DNA of 22,116 nucleotides, taken from a virus. The position numbers and the translations under genes are program-made. The DNA is taken from positions 1 to 22,116 of IMG/VR virus record IMGVR_UViG_3300001298_000018; one strand, 5' to 3'. The notes beneath the pieces are model-generated. The model saw only the letters and a list, made by a program, of their open reading frames with translations, did not search any database and was not told the DNA's origin. Below, one piece after another: positions 4,486-10,666 of the stretch (position 1 is the first letter of the stretch; each line of letters opens with the position of its first letter).

Positions 4486-4938
4486 TCACGCCGCGCGAAG
4501 CGGGGTAGGGCTGGCGGCCTCGATGGCGCGCCGGACGCCACGGACCCGCTCAAGGGCCTCCTCGGCGTCACGTTCGGCCGCAGCGATGGCGTCGAGATCG
4601 TTGTTGGACAGGCGGCCGTCGGCCAGGGCCTCACGAACAGCGGCGACGACGTCCATGCTCTCCTGAGCGAGGTCGAAGGCCAGCTCCTTCAGGCAGCCGG
4701 TCACCGGCGACGGGCGGCAGGCGTCGAACAGGACGGTGCTGTAGATCGCCTTGCCGCAGTGGCGCTCGAGGTCCGCCATGACGTCAGCGGGCATGGTCGA
4801 GGGATCGTGCGGGGTCTGGTAGCTCGACAGGGCCGACTTGCGGACCCGGCAGGCGCGCGCCGCTTCCTCCAGACCGCCGCAAGCGTCGATCAGGTCGGCG
4901 GCGAGCCGGGCGTGTTCTCGGTGGCTGATCTTGTTCAT
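4486..4938 (-). CDS. Possible CII-like phage regulatory protein
   Basis: A 150-residue protein. The N-terminal half (REHARLAADLIDACGGLEEA, then ARACRVRKSALSSYQ) has the helix-turn-helix layout of phage regulatory proteins of the CII type, with a candidate recognition helix RKSALSSYQTP at about residues 33-43, followed by MPADVMADLERHCGK. The C-terminal half (about 85-145) is a long Ala/Glu/Asp-rich helix that could dimerise. It is separated from its neighbours by about 48 bp on each side, the loosest spacing in the left operon. The DNA-binding role is inferred from layout only; no exact family is claimed. Confidence 0.6.
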   Translation of the reverse strand: MNKISHREHARLAADLIDACGGLEEAARACRVRKSALSSYQTPHDPSTMPADVMADLERHCGKAIYSTVLFDACRPSPVTGCLKELAFDLAQESMDVVAAVREALADGRLSNNDLDAIAAAERDAEEALERVRGVRRAIEAASPTPLRAA

Positions 4939-5328: not shown

Positions 5329-5583
5329 TCAGGCGGCCTCAGAAGGGCGCTGGTCGTCGTTAGCGGCCTCGGAACGGAAACGCTCGACGAGGGCGATATC
5401 AGGGTTCAGGTCTGCAGCTTTGATCCGGCCGCCGGACAGGCGTTCGATTGAGAGCGCGACCCGCACGCTGGCGGCGCCCGTACGTTCAAGCGTGCTGACA
5501 TGACCCTTGCTCTTGAGGCCGACGCGAACCGCGAAGGCTTCCTGCGACAGGCCGAGTTCTTTGCGAAGGGCGGTGATGTCCAT
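5329..5583 (-). CDS. Cro-like HTH regulator opening the leftward early operon
   Basis: From the ATG at 5583 the product has 84 residues. Residues 1-35 form an XRE-type helix-turn-helix: MDITALRKELGLSQEAFAVR, then VGLKSKGHVSTLERTG, with Gln14-Glu15-Ala16 at helix 2 and the S30-T31-L32 recognition helix. A short dimerisation-like part follows and the tail is polar. A longer frame extends upstream into the operator region and across the divergent gene, so the short start is preferred even though no ribosome-binding site precedes it; the mRNA may be leaderless, which is common in Caulobacterales. An operator copy ends 9 bp upstream of the start. It probably represses the divergent gene and its own operon, as Cro does. 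Confidence 0.8.
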   Translation of the reverse strand: MDITALRKELGLSQEAFAVRVGLKSKGHVSTLERTGAASVRVALSIERLSGGRIKAADLNPDIALVERFRSEAANDDQRPSEAA

Positions 5584-5589
5584 ACGCGA

Positions 5590-5619
5590 ATGTTTGCATA
5601 TGCCGAACATTTCAGCAAG
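5590..5619 (-). promoter_or_regulatory. Candidate leftward early promoter/operator, shared with 9861-9890
   Basis: Read on the minus strand, the pattern CTTGC-N4-ATGTTCGGCATATGCAAAC-WT lies just before the Cro-like start. The same pattern occurs on the plus strand at 9861-9890, with 26 of 30 positions identical. TTGC plus a 17-bp spacer would make it a -35 box, with the operator covering the spacer and -10 region; the -10 box itself (AAACAT) is a poor match. The conservation at two early-operon starts is directly visible; promoter function is inferred. Confidence 0.6.
5592..5610 (-). promoter_or_regulatory. Operator-like repeat O1
   Basis: On the minus strand this is ATGTTCGGCATATGCAAAC, with a perfect GCATATGC palindromic core and asymmetric flanks. 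It ends 9 bp before the Cro-like start codon. It is an exact match to the copy at 9870-9888. Confidence 0.8.
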
Positions 5620-5623
5620 GCGG

Positions 5624-5642
5624 ATGTTCGGCATATGCAGAC
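5624..5642 (+). promoter_or_regulatory. Operator-like repeat O2
   Basis: ATGTTCGGCATATGCAGAC on the plus strand: one mismatch to O1, in inverted orientation relative to it. It lies in the middle of the divergent control region. Confidence 0.75.
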
Positions 5643-5659
5643 TGACGGCTCGGCACCGT

Positions 5660-5678
5660 GTTTGCATACTCCGAACAT
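5660..5678 (-). promoter_or_regulatory. Operator-like repeat O3 overlapping the repressor start codon
   Basis: On the plus strand it reads GTTTGCATACTCCGAACAT, differing from the reverse complement of O1 at two core positions. Its last two bases are the first two of the rightward regulator's ATG, so binding here would block initiation of that gene. The degenerate core suggests weaker binding than O1 and O2. Confidence 0.7.
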
Positions 5679-6072
5679 GAACACCAAGCCCCGGAAGTCG
5701 CGCCCCGCAGAGGTCTATGAGGACTATCGCTCTAGGAGCGGCTGGTATTTGGCGGCCTGGCGCGACTATGCTGGGCTCACCCTTGAAGATCTCGCGGCCG
5801 AGCTGGGAAGGTCGAAGGGTTACATTTCGGACTTGGAAACAGGCGCCGTGCGCACGGGGCGACCGGCGACTCGATTCAACCGCGACCTCATTGAGCAAGT
5901 TGCGGGTGTTGTCGGAACGACTGGCGGCCGCCTGATTGATGTGAACCCGTTCAACCTGAATGAGCAGGTGGAGCGCCTCAACTCGGTCATCTCGCGCTTA
6001 GACGAAGCGGGACAACAGGCGGTTCTCAATATGGCGGAGTCCTGGGCCGGTCGAACCGGCACTGGCGGATAA
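5677..6072 (+). CDS. XRE-family HTH regulator, likely lysogeny repressor
   Basis: From the ATG at 5677 the product has 131 residues; a longer in-frame start at 5500 would run through the operators and the divergent gene and is rejected. Residues 24-58 are a canonical HTH: WYLAAWRDYAGLTLEDLAAE, then LGRSKGYISDLETG, with recognition helix SKGYISDLE. The C-terminal part (about 85-131) is helical with hydrophobic positions suited to dimerisation, and no LexA/CI peptidase residues are present. It is divergent from the Cro-like gene and leads a rightward cassette of two membrane proteins and an AlbA_2 regulator. A repressor role is inferred from position; it could instead be the Cro partner of the pair. 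Confidence 0.8.
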   Translation: MNTKPRKSRPAEVYEDYRSRSGWYLAAWRDYAGLTLEDLAAELGRSKGYISDLETGAVRTGRPATRFNRDLIEQVAGVVGTTGGRLIDVNPFNLNEQVERLNSVISRLDEAGQQAVLNMAESWAGRTGTGG

Positions 6073-6104
6073 CCCAGCCGGAAGGCTGAACCTCGGGGGA
6101 GGGG
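6064..6104 (+). repeat. Gene-junction repeat, copy 1 (stop codon plus ribosome-binding site)
   Basis: GGCGGATAACC at 6064-6074 and AACCTCGGGGGAGGGG at 6089-6104 recur as one unbroken unit at 6680-6702. Here they are separated by a small hairpin insert. The unit contains the upstream gene's Gly-Gly-stop end and the GGGGGAGGGG Shine-Dalgarno for the next gene. Confidence 0.7.
6075..6088 (+). other. Small perfect hairpin between repressor and membrane-protein gene
   Basis: CAGCC-GGAA-GGCTG forms a 5-bp stem with a four-base loop immediately after the repressor stop. No T-run follows, so it is not a rho-independent terminator; it may affect mRNA stability or translation of the next gene. Confidence 0.5.
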
Positions 6105-6107
6105 CAA

Positions 6108-6428
6108 ATGAACATAGCCGCCAGCGCCGGCGCCAACGCCGCGATCATCGCGACCTTGGCTCGCAGCAAGGTCATTGAGCATTTCCAGAAGGCTGGGGCG
6201 CTAAATCCTGAGGCTGCCGTGCCGCTGCCGGCCAAGAGTTCTCGCTCCATTGTGGACGCCCTGATCAAGCAGAAGGTGCTGATCCCTGCCGGGGACGGGT
6301 TGTTCTACGTGGATCTCGACGCCGACAAGCAGTGGCTTCGTGCGCAGGGCAATGTGGCGGTCGCCGTGATCATCGGGCTGGTTGTCCTGCTGGGGATCGT
6401 GATGGTCATCGTGGCGGTGGCGGGGTGA
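6108..6428 (+). CDS. Small tail-anchored membrane protein with wHTH-like N-terminal part
   Basis: A 106-residue protein preceded by a strong GGGGGAGGGG ribosome-binding site. Residues 10-80 are soluble, with a compact helical pattern (SKVIEHFQKAGALNPEAAV, SIVDALIKQKVLIPAGDGLF, YVDLDADKQWL) similar to a winged-helix module with the strand-loop GDGLFYVD. Residues 83-104 (VAVAVIIGLVVLLGIVMVIV) form a single C-terminal transmembrane segment. It would sit at the inner membrane with its soluble domain in the cytoplasm. It overlaps the next gene by GTGA, so the two are probably made together. A lysogenic-conversion or superinfection-exclusion role is a guess from position alone. Confidence 0.75.
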   Translation: MNIAASAGANAAIIATLARSKVIEHFQKAGALNPEAAVPLPAKSSRSIVDALIKQKVLIPAGDGLFYVDLDADKQWLRAQGNVAVAVIIGLVVLLGIVMVIVAVAG

Positions 6429-6688
6429 CCGAAGCCGAACTCTGGAAGCTGGCGGCCCAGCCCGCGATATTCGCTATCGCCATGCTGTCGTTCCTGAAGG
6501 CGTCGTGGCGGGTGAGGTTGATGGCGGCCGTGGGCGCCGCTGCGGTGGGCCTGGCGATCAGTCTGATCGCCATGTGGGCTGAGCGCTCCGGGATGCCATG
6601 GCTTGGGTGGGTCTTCGCAGCGAACTGCGCTGCGTATCTAGTATGGCGTTTGATCAAGCGGCGGCGAGCAGCCGCGCATGGCGGATAA
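6425..6688 (+). CDS. Small integral membrane protein (about three TM segments), GTG start
   Basis: A GTG at 6425 overlaps the preceding stop as GTGA and gives 87 residues; an earlier ATG would place about 31 residues inside the upstream gene. Three hydrophobic stretches are visible: AQPAIFAIAMLSFLKASW, LMAAVGAAAVGLAISLIAMW and GWVFAANCAAYLVWRLI, followed by a basic end KRRRAAAHGG that favours a cytoplasmic C-terminus. No family is recognised. With the tail-anchored protein it forms a two-gene membrane unit inside the immunity cassette. Confidence 0.7.
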   Translation: MTEAELWKLAAQPAIFAIAMLSFLKASWRVRLMAAVGAAAVGLAISLIAMWAERSGMPWLGWVFAANCAAYLVWRLIKRRRAAAHGG

Positions 6689-6702
6689 CCTCGGGGGAGG
6701 GG
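6680..6702 (+). repeat. Gene-junction repeat, copy 2
   Basis: GGCGGATAACC runs directly into TCGGGGGAGGGG, ending five bases before the ATG at 6707. It is the uninterrupted form of the unit at 6064-6104. The duplication marks both ends of the two-gene membrane unit. Confidence 0.7.
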
Positions 6703-6706
6703 TGAT

Positions 6707-8188
6707 ATGGCTAAGCAGCCAGACTTGTTCGAACATCCTGGAAAGAGAGTGTTCGAACAAAAAGGGGCAGAAGTTGTTCGAACACTTCGGCCCAAATATG
6801 CGGCGATCGATGCCGAAAAAATTAGCCAGGACGAAGCCCAGACAATTTTGGCTTTGGATGAAGCTCAGACCTACGAACTGAAAGGGCGCGAGGTGGCGCC
6901 CGCGAAGCTGATGCGAACGATCTCAGCATTCGCAAACGCTGATGGCGGAGAGCTGTACGTAGGGGTTGCCGAAACCGCCGCTAGAACGCGCTACTGGGAT
7001 GGCTTCGCGAACCCCGAAGCCGCAAATGGCCATATCCAAGCGTTCGAACAAGCGTTCCCACTCGGGACCTACTTCAACTACTCCTTTTTGGCGTGCGAAG
7101 GCCTGCCGGGCCTGGTCCTCAAGGCGATCGTCAATAAGACTGACCGCGTCACATATGCAGCCAACGGGACGGCCTATCTTCGCAGAGGGGCTCAATCCAT
7201 AGCGCAAAACACTCCCGAGCTCCTGCGGCGCTTAGAGTACTCGAAGGGTGTTGCGACCTATGAGACCGAACTCGTCAATGTAGACCTAGATGTGGTTACG
7301 GAGTCCGAAACCGCCAAGCTGTTCATACGGCACGTGGTTCCTCAAACCAGTGTGGCTTCTTGGCTTAAGAAGCAGGCCCTCATCAGAGAATATCGCCCCA
7401 CCGTCGCCGGCCTTCTGCTGTTTGGCGATGTCCCTCAGGCCCACCTTCCAAAACGGTGCGGTGTAAAGGTCTACCGTTATAAGACCAGCGAGGCTGAGGG
7501 TTTTCGGGAGGCGCTAGCTTTCACGCCGGAAACCATTGAGGGGCCTCTTTACGATCAGATCAAAGTGGCGGTGGCTCGAACTATCCATCATGTCGAGAAG
7601 ATCCCTCGACTTGGTGATGCTGGCCTAGAAGCCATCAAATATCCCCTGGAGACGATCCATGAGATCGTGACCAACGCCATAATCCACCGCGATTATAGTA
7701 TCGCCGACGACGTCCACATCAGAATTTTCGACAACCGAATTGAAGTGCAAAGTCCGGGTCGGCTTGCAGCCCACGTGACCCTGGAAAATGTCCTTCGAGA
7801 AAGAGCGCATCGCAACGGCGCCATCGTCCGGATGTTGAACAAATTCCCTGACCCGCCGAACAAGGATGTCGGAGAGGGGCTAAATACCGCATTCCGAAAA
7901 ATGTACGAGGTTGGCCTTAAGCGGCCGCTGCTAAATCAAACAGAAAATAGCTTCCTGGTGACCATCAGGCACGAGCCACTGGCCGGTCCTGAGGAAGCGA
8001 TCATCGACTTTCTTGTCGAAAATGGGACTATCAAGAACGCACAAGCGCGCGAGATAACCCACATCAAAGCCGACTACGTCATGAAGCGCATCTTCCAGAA
8101 GATGATGAAGAAGGGCGTGATTGAACAGGTTCCGGGGACGGACAAATTCACGACCTGCTACCGCCTTAGCGAGGCTGTTGCGGGCTAA
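6707..8188 (+). CDS. AlbA_2 (Schlafen-type) DNA-binding / HATPase regulator protein
   Basis: A 493-residue protein of the family often annotated as ATP-binding transcriptional regulator or RecG-like. Residues about 50-170 are the AlbA_2 domain (TYELKGREVAPAKLMRTISA, FANADGGELYVGV). Residues about 235-345 include LLFGDVPQAHLPKR and the GHKL-like ATP-binding part LETIHEIVTNAIIHRDY with HIRIFDNRIEVQSPGRL, and DVGEGLNTAFRKMYEVGL at about 387-404. The C-terminus (about 428-490) is a winged helix (EEAIIDFLVENGTIKNAQAR). The codons are visibly A/T-richer than neighbouring genes, suggesting separate acquisition. A strong GGGGGAGGGG ribosome-binding site precedes it and a rho-independent terminator follows. 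Three identical 10-bp palindromes lie in its first 80 bases, suggesting autoregulation. Family members occur in defence and regulatory settings; the exact role is unknown. Confidence 0.88.
   Translation: MAKQPDLFEHPGKRVFEQKGAEVVRTLRPKYAAIDAEKISQDEAQTILALDEAQTYELKGREVAPAKLMRTISAFANADGGELYVGVAETAARTRYWDGFANPEAANGHIQAFEQAFPLGTYFNYSFLACEGLPGLVLKAIVNKTDRVTYAANGTAYLRRGAQSIAQNTPELLRRLEYSKGVATYETELVNVDLDVVTESETAKLFIRHVVPQTSVASWLKKQALIREYRPTVAGLLLFGDVPQAHLPKRCGVKVYRYKTSEAEGFREALAFTPETIEGPLYDQIKVAVARTIHHVEKIPRLGDAGLEAIKYPLETIHEIVTNAIIHRDYSIADDVHIRIFDNRIEVQSPGRLAAHVTLENVLRERAHRNGAIVRMLNKFPDPPNKDVGEGLNTAFRKMYEVGLKRPLLNQTENSFLVTIRHEPLAGPEEAIIDFLVENGTIKNAQAREITHIKADYVMKRIFQKMMKKGVIEQVPGTDKFTTCYRLSEAVAG
6726..6784. 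promoter_or_regulatory. Three TGTTCGAACA palindromes at 24-25 bp spacing inside the AlbA_2 gene start
   Basis: Perfect TGTTCGAACA sites at 6726-6735, 6750-6759 and 6775-6784 encode different residues in different frames (LFEH, VFEQ, VVRT), so protein repetition does not explain them. A related CGTTCGAACA lies at 7041-7050. The regular spacing of roughly 2.3 helical turns fits cooperative binding of a dimeric regulator. Confidence 0.7.
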
Positions 8189-8379
8189 GTCCCCGCTTCG
8201 TCACGCCCCGCAGCGGGCGGGGTTTTTCCCTCCCGCTCCAGCGTGTCCGCCTCCTCCCGATACTTGTCGGCGATCCCGCCGAACCTCTCGCGATCTGCCT
8301 TGAAGGGTGAAAGCCTGGCCATGTTCTCGGCGCTGCGCTGAAGCTGGCGAAGCTCCGATAGTCGGGAGGGACGGGTCAT
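8185..8379 (-). CDS. Small charged protein of unknown function (64 aa)
   Basis: From the ATG at 8379 (MTRPSRLSELRQLQRSAENM) the product is a hydrophilic helical protein; an upstream ATG at 8427 adds 16 residues of weaker character. The pattern of short helices ERFGGIADKYREEADTLERE is like small alphaproteobacterial proteins of unknown role. Its 3' end overlaps the AlbA_2 gene stop by 4 bp on the opposite strand and includes the terminator hairpin of that gene. No clear Shine-Dalgarno was found, so this gene is less certain than its neighbours. Confidence 0.5.
   Translation of the reverse strand: MTRPSRLSELRQLQRSAENMARLSPFKADRERFGGIADKYREEADTLEREGKTPPAAGRDEAGT
8206..8227 (+). terminator. Rho-independent terminator of the repressor/AlbA_2 cassette
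   Basis: CCCCGC (8206-8211), loop AGCGG, GCGGGG (8217-8222), then TTTTT. It lies 17 bp after the AlbA_2 stop codon, closing the rightward immunity cassette. Confidence 0.85.
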
Positions 8380-8576
8380 TGTGAAGCGGAACTCGGATAA
8401 TGCGGTCGGGAACTGGCTTCGGACCAAGTCCTGAGCCTGTTGCCGATACGGCCCGTCTGAGGGCTTGGATGACCTCGCAGTTCCCTAAAGTCGCTCAACA
8501 TTATCGTGTAGCTCAGCCGTAGGAACGCCCGTTTCCGCAGCTGCTTCATCTCCCGTAACCAAAAGGGAGAAGCGAC

Positions 8577-8777
8577 ATGACCGACGTCCAACCGAACCAC
8601 GATCGCGAACAGGATCTGGAAACCACGACGCCGCAACCGGACGAGAACCCGCAGCAGCGGGAGCATCTTCGAGAGCAGGCTCAGCGCCAGCCAGGTCAGG
8701 AAGATCCGGCGCCGGCGTCGGGCGGCGAAGGCGCTGCCGGGGCAGGCGGGCCCGGTGGATTCGGCACAGGAAGCTGA
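8577..8777 (+). CDS. Small acidic, disordered protein (66 aa)
   Basis: A 66-residue frame preceded by AGGGAG about 8 nt before the ATG and followed at once by a strong terminator, so it looks like a self-contained monocistronic unit. The sequence is rich in Gln, Glu, Asp and Pro (NHDREQDLETTTPQPDENPQ), ending in a Gly/Ala-rich tail. No hydrophobic core or known motif is seen, so it is probably intrinsically disordered. The function is unknown; it may be a cargo gene carried by the phage. Confidence 0.65.
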   Translation: MTDVQPNHDREQDLETTTPQPDENPQQREHLREQAQRQPGQEDPAPASGGEGAAGAGGPGGFGTGS

Positions 8778-8802
8778 AGCCCAGCTCATTGAGCACATCG
8801 AA

Positions 8803-8827
8803 CCCCGTCCGAAAGGGCGGGGTTTTT
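8803..8827 (+). terminator. Rho-independent terminator after the disordered protein gene
   Basis: CCCCGTCC (8803-8810), GAAA tetraloop, GGGCGGGG (8815-8822) with one G-T wobble, then TTTTT. It lies 25 bp after the stop codon. Confidence 0.88.
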
Positions 8828-8845
8828 GCTGTCAGGCTCAATTGA

Positions 8846-8873
8846 AAACGGCGGCCCGATGGAGCCGCCGTTT
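8846..8873 (-). terminator. Hairpin terminator for the lipoprotein gene
   Basis: AAACGGCGGC (8846-8855) and GCCGCCGTTT (8864-8873) form a 10-bp perfect stem with an 8-base loop. On the minus strand it is followed by a short T-run and lies 20 bp past the lipoprotein stop. It may work in both directions. Confidence 0.75.
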
Positions 8874-8893
8874 CCGTCTTCAATGCATGAAGA

Positions 8894-9283
8894 TCACTCG
8901 CCGCGAGCGATCGGCTCCAGCAGGAAGCTCGGGACCTGGATCGTCAGGTTGGCGTTGGCCGGGTTGTCGCACTGCTTGTCGTTGTAGAACGTCATCAGGT
9001 GCGTGCGGCGCTGTTCAACCAGTTGCTGTGCGTCGCGGGCGTTCAGGTAGTTGCCGGCGGCGGCGGGCCAGAACAGCAGAACCGCAGCGACGTTGGCGCC
9101 GTTCACGCCCTTGTCGCTGTCGGCGTCGCGCTTGATGGCGTCGAGGCGATTGAACTCTTCCTTGAGCTGCGTGCAGGTCATGGCGCGGTCGCCGGGCTGC
9201 ATGACGCTGACCTTCTCGGTCGTGGTGCAGGCGGTCAGGGCAAGGCCAGCGCACAGCGTGGCCGCGATTGCGGTCTTCTTCAT
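8894..9283 (-). CDS. Small lipoprotein
   Basis: The ATG at 9283 is preceded by GGGGGGA about 6 nt upstream and starts a classic lipoprotein signal: basic MKK, hydrophobic core, lipobox LTAC with Cys19 as the lipidated residue. The mature part (about 110 residues) contains GDRAMTCTQLKEEFNRLDAI, a hydrophobic segment VNGANVAAVLLFWPAAAGNY and the RRTHLMTFYNDKQC motif with paired Cys. This resembles a widespread small proteobacterial lipoprotein family of unknown role. The residue after Cys is Thr, so outer-membrane sorting is expected. Alone on its strand with its own terminator, it is a candidate lysogenic-conversion gene. Confidence 0.85.
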   Translation of the reverse strand: MKKTAIAATLCAGLALTACTTTEKVSVMQPGDRAMTCTQLKEEFNRLDAIKRDADSDKGVNGANVAAVLLFWPAAAGNYLNARDAQQLVEQRRTHLMTFYNDKQCDNPANANLTIQVPSFLLEPIARGE

Positions 9284-9307
9284 GTGATCCCCCCAGGATC
9301 GATAGTC

Positions 9308-9328
9308 CGCTCGACCCTCCGTCGAGCG
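9308..9328. promoter_or_regulatory. 7-bp inverted repeat upstream of the lipoprotein gene
   Basis: CGCTCGA (9308-9314) and TCGAGCG (9322-9328) are separated by 7 bp and lie 25-45 bp before the lipoprotein ATG. It could be an operator or a 5' leader hairpin; the sequence does not decide. Confidence 0.45.
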
Positions 9329-9370
9329 ATAGCGACGACATATCACGACGTTCGTAAAAGTCGAGTGACG

Positions 9371-9739
9371 TCAGGCGGCCTCTTCGTCGGCCAGTTCGTC
9401 ACCTTCGGCCAACGGATCTATCTGGGTCCAGGTGTCGCCGCCGGCGCTGCAGTCGATCTTGAAGTAGGCGGTGTCGTCGAGCCAAGGGTCGCGGCCATCA
9501 GGATCGATCCCGGTTGCTGCGCGCGGTACAGACCCATGCTGGGCCAGCACCTCGACCTCTCCGAACAGGTCCAGGTCGGTGTCCGCCCATTGCTGATAGA
9601 CCAGCACTCCATCGGCTGAGCGGGCGAGGATCTCGCCGCCTTCTTCTGCGTCCACAGCGCACACGAACTCGTATCGCTGGGCTGGCTCCCGGCGATGATC
9701 CCAGAACGGTTGCGCGTAGTAGTGCAGCCGGCGCGGCAT
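9371..9739 (-). CDS. Unknown acidic phage protein (122 aa)
   Basis: A 122-residue protein starting MPRRLHYYAQPFWDHRREPA and ending in a strongly acidic tail (PLAEGDELADEEAA). The middle (YEFVCAVDAEEGGEILARSA, VLVYQQWADTDLDLFGEV) has alternating beta-strand-like stretches typical of small cytoplasmic proteins. No metal-binding or catalytic motif is seen and no family is recognised. It is read leftwards and diverges from the right early operon; the gap between its start and the operators at 9836-9888 is about 95 bp, so it may share that control region. Confidence 0.65.
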   Translation of the reverse strand: MPRRLHYYAQPFWDHRREPAQRYEFVCAVDAEEGGEILARSADGVLVYQQWADTDLDLFGEVEVLAQHGSVPRAATGIDPDGRDPWLDDTAYFKIDCSAGGDTWTQIDPLAEGDELADEEAA

Positions 9740-9789
9740 GCCTCATCCCTCCAGACGTTAACGCTCCACCCGCCACATCGAACGACGTT

Positions 9790-9794
9790 GAGTC
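9790..9794. promoter_or_regulatory. GANTC (CcrM-type) site in the divergent intergenic region
   Basis: GAGTC within the 9-bp near-palindrome TTGAGTCAA, 46 bp upstream of the first right operator. GANTC is the CcrM methylation site sensed by GcrA in Caulobacterales. A single site could be chance. Confidence 0.4.
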
Positions 9795-9835
9795 AACCGG
9801 CTTGCTGGCTGGTGCGTCCGATCATGACGTCCGCA

Positions 9836-9854
9836 TGGTTCGGCATATGCAAAC
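9836..9854 (+). promoter_or_regulatory. Operator-like repeat O4
   Basis: TGGTTCGGCATATGCAAAC, two mismatches at the left edge to the 19-bp repeat at 9870-9888; start-to-start spacing is 34 bp. Confidence 0.75.
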
Positions 9855-9860
9855 TTTTCT

Positions 9861-9890
9861 CTTGCGGTCATGTTCGGCATATGCAAACTT
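9861..9890 (+). promoter_or_regulatory. Candidate rightward early promoter/operator
   Basis: CTTGC-N4-ATGTTCGGCATATGCAAAC-TT, 26/30 identical to the minus-strand element at 5590-5619. It ends 24 bp before the first ATG of the right operon, suitable for a short leader. TTGCGG is the candidate -35; the -10 match is weak. Confidence 0.6.
9870..9888 (+). promoter_or_regulatory. Operator-like repeat O5
   Basis: ATGTTCGGCATATGCAAAC, identical over 19 bp to O1 at 5592-5610 on the other strand, some 4.3 kb away. Confidence 0.8.
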
Positions 9891-9914
9891 TCTCCCATCA
9901 CCGGGAGACGAACC

Positions 9915-10028
9915 ATGTCACTCAAGACCGAAACCACTGCCCAGAAGACGGCCGCCTTTGAACAGGCGATCCGCGATCTGAAGGCTGGCGTTGAAGCCCA
10001 GCGCCAGCTGATCCTGGGGGCCCGCTGA
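9915..10028 (+). CDS. First gene of right early operon, 37-aa protein
   Basis: ATG at 9915 with GGGAG about 7 nt upstream, encoding 37 residues that form one amphipathic helix (AAFEQAIRDLKAGVEAQRQL). The stop overlaps the next ATG as TGATG. Its short length would escape many gene finders. The ribosome-binding site, operator-controlled position and coupling support it as real; it may be a leader peptide or a small protein-binding factor. No family is recognised. Confidence 0.65.
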   Translation: MSLKTETTAQKTAAFEQAIRDLKAGVEAQRQLILGAR

Positions 10029-10666
10029 TGGCCCTCGCTCGTCACCAAGACGGCCTGCGCCCCATTGGGGAAGCGCTGGGCGCCGTCATCGTCGGCCTCG
10101 ACCGCGTCGTCGCGAAGAAGGCCGGCAAGACCGTCATTCAGAACCTCGCCGACACGCAGGGCTGGGAAGCGCCTGAGGAAGGCACCGAGCGTTATCGGAT
10201 GCTGGACCTCGCGCTGGCCTCGCGCGGCATGGGCTACAGGTTCAAGGGCGGGGAGGGCGCGCACGACGCGTGGTCTCTGGCCCGGACCTGCGCCGCCTTC
10301 GCGTGTGAGCGGGACTGCATCGATGTCCGCCGTGAAGACGGTGTGACCGAAGCCGAAGCCCGCATGGCGCTGACGCAGTGGGGCCTGACCGAGGTCCGCG
10401 CCCGCCACGCCGCGCCGGGCGACCTGCTGCTTTTCCAAGCCAAGGAAGGCTTCCACGTCGCGATCATGTCGGCGCCGGGCGGGGACCTGTCCTGGTCAAT
10501 GCTGCCGGGCCGCCGTCTGGCTGAAGCCCGCATGATCCACGCCGCGCCGGCCAAGTCGGTCGTCGAGAGCTGGGTCGGGCCGTTCTGGATGGAACAGCTG
10601 GTCGCCGCCTTCTCCTTCGAGACGCCGGGCGCGCCGCTTCGGGCTGTGATGCGGAGAGCTGCATGA
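10028..10666 (+). CDS. NlpC/P60-like protein with an altered catalytic site (fold tentative)
   Basis: A 212-residue protein. The C-terminal half has the NlpC/P60 peptidase layout: APGDLLLFQAKEGFHVAIMS (about 128-147, candidate catalytic His143), then ARMIHAAPAKSVVESWVGPF (about 167-186) and a final WMEQLVAAFSF strand. Upstream, GYRFKGGEGAHDAWSLARTC (about 69-88) aligns with the usual G-x-D-C-x-G-L-V nucleophile loop, but the Cys position is Ala81. Cys88, Cys93 and Cys97 lie nearby and might substitute. NlpC/P60 enzymes cleave peptidoglycan stem peptides, but the early-operon position argues against a tail or lysis enzyme. It may be an inactive scaffold or an enzyme with another substrate. Confidence 0.55.
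   Translation: MALARHQDGLRPIGEALGAVIVGLDRVVAKKAGKTVIQNLADTQGWEAPEEGTERYRMLDLALASRGMGYRFKGGEGAHDAWSLARTCAAFACERDCIDVRREDGVTEAEARMALTQWGLTEVRARHAAPGDLLLFQAKEGFHVAIMSAPGGDLSWSMLPGRRLAEARMIHAAPAKSVVESWVGPFWMEQLVAAFSFETPGAPLRAVMRRAA

Follow-up and report, generated by a model that had tools for sequence, protein, structure and literature searches.

A predicted lambda-like switch with shared 17-bp operators and a Shine-Dalgarno hairpin in a phage of Brevundimonas-type bacteria

Two early operons of a virus begin with the same repeated sequence, which raises the question of whether one repressor specificity controls both. The window (the whole stretch of DNA analysed) is a complete virus record of 22,116 bp. 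A first-pass annotation reported a 19-bp operator, present between divergent regulators and before the right operon, and predicted that one helix-turn-helix (HTH) regulator acts on both arms, much like lambda OL/OR. The locus is probably where a temperate, lambda-like phage that infects Brevundimonas-type bacteria decides between lysis and lysogeny, and its sequence makes it very likely that this switch works through operators shared by both arms.

Five copies of the 19-mer occur at 5592-5610, 5624-5642, 5660-5678, 9836-9854 and 9870-9888 (0, 1, 2, 2 and 0 mismatches), as reported; no further copy is present elsewhere in the 22,116-bp window, and none arose in 100 shuffles (0 expected). The 30-bp element common to both control regions was again 26/30 identical when recomputed. 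The repeat itself stands, but its unit is better described as 17 bp (GTTCGGCATATGCAAAC), with the leading AT not conserved. Read as 17-mers, the copies begin at 5592, 5626 and 5660 in one cluster and at 9838 and 9872 in the other, both clusters advancing in exact 34-bp steps, a regularity masked by the 32- and 36-bp spacings of the 19-mer coordinates. The operator is an odd-centred dyad, GTTYG-N7-CRAAC. The GCATATGC core lies outside the symmetry, varies in relatives and does not define the motif; the arms GTTYG and CRAAC are what is constant. The regulatory genes and operators are as follows.

4486..4938, minus strand: CII-like protein (phrog_101) of the left operon, E 1.2e-10
5329..5583, minus strand: cro-like HTH protein, 84 aa, leading the left operon (homology searches)
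5592..5608, minus strand: operator s1 (OR1-like), a perfect dyad within the predicted cro promoter, the cro ATG lying 8 nt beyond it
5626..5642, plus strand: operator s2 (OR2-like), left half GTTCG perfect, right half degenerate and abutting the cI -35
5660..5676, minus strand: operator s3 (OR3-like), overlapping the predicted cI -10, its last base directly before the cI ATG
5677..6072, plus strand: cI-like HTH repressor, 131 aa, ATG directly after s3
9838..9854, plus strand: operator sA (OL-like) at the right-operon promoter, from the dyad match and relatives
9872..9888, plus strand: operator sB (OL-like) at the right-operon promoter, containing the TG of the extended -10
9915..10028, plus strand: 37-aa gene that opens the right operon, with its Shine-Dalgarno in a hairpin

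Two features of a lambda-type switch are thereby present: divergent cI and cro genes with three operators between them, and the same operator again at a second early promoter. The left arm, on the minus strand, also encodes a RuvC-like resolvase and a DnaB helicase, and the right operon encodes a DUF3799 nuclease, a RecT-like match (weak, below the cut-off) and an integrase. With these predicted functions the gene order is a mirror image of that of lambda: the CII-like, replication, RecT-like and integrase genes each lie on the arm where they would be expected. The window contains no TTGC-N6-TTGC repeats of the type used by lambda CII, and a megablast search of it against phages gave no match.

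Searches with CI and Cro led to about fifteen related phage contigs and also to a prophage in a Brevundimonas metagenome bin whose CI is 74% identical. Close relatives have the sites at both regions. Among dyad-to-dyad distances at 21 loci, some of them from near-identical phages, 34 bp accounts for 26 pairs and 68 bp for 11, and the next best distance for 3. IMG/VR has 31 stretches in which N17 separates two dyads, versus 3 for a control spacing of N20. The exact 17-mer was found in one of 390 Caulobacteraceae genomes, namely the Brevundimonas prophage, and in three IMG/VR contigs, each with homologous cI/cro; it is absent outside this phage context from both collections. Many copies at unrelated places in host chromosomes, which the first-pass annotation had named as evidence against an operator, were thus not seen across the 390 genomes. 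Host genomes contain chance matches to the loose pattern GTTYG-N7-CRAAC by itself; it is the full 17-mer or the spacing that confers specificity. In a class-wide sample of 385 genomes the exact module was recovered from the Brevundimonas prophage only, and so reference genomes seldom contain it.

The shared 30-bp element is, from its sequence, an operator combined with a predicted promoter (-35 TTGC.., 17-bp spacer, extended -10). Promoters can be predicted for all three transcripts.

5590..5618, minus strand: predicted cro promoter, -35 TTGCTG (5618-5613), 17 bp, -10 AAACAT (5595-5590)
5583, minus strand: predicted cro +1, the A of the ATG
5642..5670, plus strand: predicted cI promoter (PRM-like), -35 CTGACG (5642-5647), 17 bp, -10 CATACT (5665-5670)
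5677, plus strand: predicted cI +1, the A of the ATG, with geometry constant in 11 phages
9862..9890, plus strand: predicted right-operon promoter, -35 TTGCGG (9862-9867), 17 bp, -10 AAACTT (9885-9890)
9897, plus strand: predicted right-operon +1, an A

A scan for consensus sigma-70 promoters detected none in this region, and the -10 elements are weak. The support for the assignments is comparative. In eleven phages s1, s2 and s3 lie at -85, -51 and -17 from the cI ATG, with a cI -35 element [CA][CT]GAC at -35, a CATACT, CAGATT or CACAAT hexamer at -12 and the ATG at +1. The cro ATG follows s1 by 8 nt in ten of the eleven, with TTG at -35, a 17-bp spacer and TG before the -10. Given this fixed spacing from hexamer to ATG, the cI and cro mRNAs are predicted to be leaderless. 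The left arm of s2 is GTTCG in 11/11 phages, and its right arm is degenerate, running into the cI -35. In the operator-pair modules of IMG/VR, nearly all stretches have TTG at one position of the spacer (L083 lacks it, and in two or three others it is shifted by one base). The second operator of each pair (site B) is enriched over the first (site A) for T11 and G12 (96/82% versus 41/62%), as would be expected for an extended -10. When modules are searched for as TTGAC-N5-site, chance matches accompany the true ones, which are recognised by the upstream partner site.

These positions suggest how the switch might operate. CI dimers would bind the sites with adjacent dimers touching, which would explain the fixed 34-bp step, and both early promoters would be shut. 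The centre of s2 lies at -43 relative to the predicted cI start, and lambda CI, bound at OR2 near -43, stimulates its own transcription; to judge from the position of s2, CI bound there may likewise be autoactivating. The 34-bp step and s2 together are suggestive of cooperative binding, looping and CI autoactivation. At s3, Cro or excess CI would shut the cI promoter. Both cI and cro would be translated from leaderless mRNAs that begin at the ATG.

Which protein recognises the sites? CI and Cro of the window family both have a recognition helix of the S[KR]G-x-[IV]S type. Within each phage the operators of both regions are alike, and between phages both change in step. The strongest evidence comes from Mae-JY04, an annotated phage. 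Its Cro is 57% identical over 63 residues, and the recognition helix of its CI differs (DKRKVSHL). This phage has four perfect GTTTC-N7-GAAAC dyads at matching places (0.2 expected at no more than one mismatch): two in the cI-cro region and two about 500 bases past the cI start, the latter 35 bp apart with TTGAC between them. The operators of both regions have changed together with CI, amounting to a complete switch of specificity, which supports one specificity for both arms. By sequence co-variation, the operators appear specific to their own repressor, as in lambda-type switches. The earlier prediction of one HTH specificity acting on both arms, as at lambda OL/OR, gains support from these comparisons. 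Its attribution to a single regulator holds for the specificity but probably not for the protein, as CI and Cro, with their similar recognition helices, probably share the sites. Use of the sites by just one HTH protein (CI at all five, or Cro at the cI-cro region only), with CI alone acting at the second region, is somewhat unlikely. Such an arrangement would fit Mae-JY04, in which Cro retains an SKG helix, CI is strongly different and the operator tracks CI. However, both proteins of the window family have S[KR]G-x-[IV]S helices, and in lambda Cro binds the same operators as CI.

A host regulator, either LexA or a ClgR-like protein, could also be imagined at these sites in place of the phage proteins. 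The ClgR box is the closest described DNA motif that we found; its consensus WNNWMGCYNNNRGCGWWS is a comparable odd-centred dyad (PMC2905415), and of all solved structures ClgR is one of the two that lie nearest to CI in sequence. This box from Streptomyces, Corynebacterium and Mycobacterium has CGC-N5-GCG arms like the GTTCGC-N5-GCGAAC of relatives and is bound by a related HTH, but ClgR is a host protease regulator, and the text consulted mentions no 34-bp array. Compared by eye with WNNWMGCYNNNRGCGWWS, the window site deviates twice (CGG and GCA) and was not assigned to this box. The alphaproteobacterial LexA box, a GTTC-N7-GTTC direct repeat, has 0 matches in the window. Host chromosomes lack the 17-mer outside the prophage and the operators track the phage CI, and we therefore consider binding by a host protein very improbable.

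The right operon shows a further element, immediately past sB.

9891..9908, plus strand: hairpin TCTCCC-ATCACC-GGGAGA, whose 3′ arm holds the Shine-Dalgarno GGAG (9904-9907), with the ATG at 9915

The 5′ arm (9891-9896) is just upstream of the predicted +1. An Rfam search gave no match. Modules that are not leaderless have an inverted repeat directly past site B, with the Shine-Dalgarno as its 3′ arm; in modules L021 and L026, no Shine-Dalgarno or start is present at the expected place. The mean z-score of folding is -3.67 for 21 modules, a set that includes closely related phages, versus -0.21 for 266 control genes on the same contigs (p 1e-13), and four extra modules from an independent search agree (z -1.7 to -5.4). 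Because a MAFFT alignment of the hairpins missed the stems, covariation was assessed by swapping arms between phages. Native arms pair at -10.8 kcal/mol and swapped arms at -7.6 kcal/mol (p 5e-5), a sign that selection acts on the pairing rather than on a DNA motif.

Given these data, we lean towards a masking step that acts on read-through RNA. RNA arriving from upstream would fold the hairpin and hide the site at which ribosomes load on the leading gene of the right operon, and RNA from the right-operon promoter would lack the 5′ arm. With only the read-through RNA masked, repression would be doubled at the level of translation. In fold predictions, accessibility of the Shine-Dalgarno is 0.06 in read-through RNA versus 0.35 in RNA from the +1, a value that is itself not high; control genes gain far less from equal shortening. 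The reading depends on where transcription starts. If the start were slightly upstream, the hairpin would be transcribed from the right-operon promoter and could serve as a 5′ stabiliser or as a constitutive brake on translation. This is unlikely in our judgement, although the hairpin begins 1-6 nt past site B in most modules and the weak -10 leaves the start position uncertain. Against it, the fixed -35 TTG places the +1 at position 9 downstream of site B, and leaderless genes of the same module have their ATG exactly there. Among the paired Shine-Dalgarno bases, 74/79 pair with positions 1-8 past site B, upstream of a +1 at position 9 as indicated by the -35 spacing and the leaderless ATGs.

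In several phages the module lies 29-180 nt past the cI stop in the same direction, and read-through from cI is therefore a real possibility. In the window, where a terminator-like site at 8205 and a gene on the opposite strand (9371-9739) separate the cI operon from the hairpin, it is less obvious. Whether a widespread class of temperate phages of alphaproteobacteria-type hosts uses one compact module to silence the lytic genes behind cI on read-through mRNA even without a terminator is, to us, an evenly balanced proposition. In such a module two repressor dyads 34 bp apart would straddle the -35, the -10 would lie within the second dyad, and the 5′ arm of the Shine-Dalgarno hairpin would be the stretch from the -10 to the +1.

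Besides the ClgR box, two known systems bear comparison with the locus. As in lambda OR/OL, divergent cI and cro flank three operators and the second early operon has a cluster of its own; of the three, the middle one is centred close to -43 relative to the predicted cI start and the last covers the predicted cI promoter, and cI is predicted to be leaderless. Lambda operator steps are about 24 bp, whereas the sites here are 17-bp GTTYG-N7-CRAAC dyads in 34-bp steps. Other differences are that the second region has two sites, not three, that cro is also apparently leaderless, and that a Shine-Dalgarno hairpin occurs at the second promoter. The 131-aa CI gave no match to a peptidase (S24) domain, and Pfam returned HTH matches only, unlike lambda CI with its RecA-cleavable LexA-like (S24) C-terminal domain. 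An AlphaFold model of CI was set aside (pLDDT 49). Because the S24 match is absent, we state that the system works like lambda OR/OL but do not class CI as a lambda CI homologue. The second system is found in phage T4. Experiments established that the Shine-Dalgarno of the T4 lysozyme gene e is hidden by an RNA helix on longer upstream transcripts (PMC3014915) and that I-TevI has a read-through silencer of the same logic (PMC2988022); in both, RNA from the local promoter starts past the 5′ arm and hence is translated (PMC3014915, PMC2988022). The hairpin here also has its Shine-Dalgarno in a helix with the 5′ arm upstream of the local start, although this start is predicted. The T4 examples concern late promoters, in contrast to the repressor-controlled early promoter of temperate phages here.

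None of the open-access papers searched describes these operators or gives operator data for Caulobacteraceae phages. As far as could be searched, the combination of a repressor pair, a promoter and a Shine-Dalgarno mask is also undescribed. The analysis describes, from sequence, a lambda-like switch of Caulobacteraceae phages and provides a motif good enough to detect such switches from the DNA pattern alone. It also raises two testable questions. Does the fixed 34-bp step arise because short repressors that lack a peptidase domain touch one another? And is it an RNA hairpin, in place of a terminator, that insulates lytic operons directly following cI?

We now note additional properties of the window and its relatives. 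In the relative L093 (4004-4756), CI has an HTH and a weak S24 peptidase match and the operator step is unchanged; the operator layout thus seems to be independent of the type of CI C-terminus. Mae-JY04 (L143) was recorded from Microcystis, yet its Cro shares 57% identity with that of the Brevundimonas-type phage family, and the recorded host may be wrong. The second gene of the right operon (10028-10666, plus strand) has a sub-threshold NlpC/P60 match, which is odd in an early operon. The stretch from cI to the second operators (6108-9838 in the window; compared across L021-L034) ranges from 0.4 to 6.2 kb, contains unrelated cargo and corresponds to the place of lambda rex. In the window this cargo consists of two small membrane-like proteins and a Schlafen/AlbA_2-RecG-like protein with PADLOC hits. 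Immediately upstream of the second operator pair and directed away from it is a 122-aa gene (9371-9739, minus strand) of unknown family with no Pfam match. It is kept at that position in several relatives (L021, L025, L026, L028, L029 and L033), with the signature LRYxAQPFW...DAEEGGxILA.
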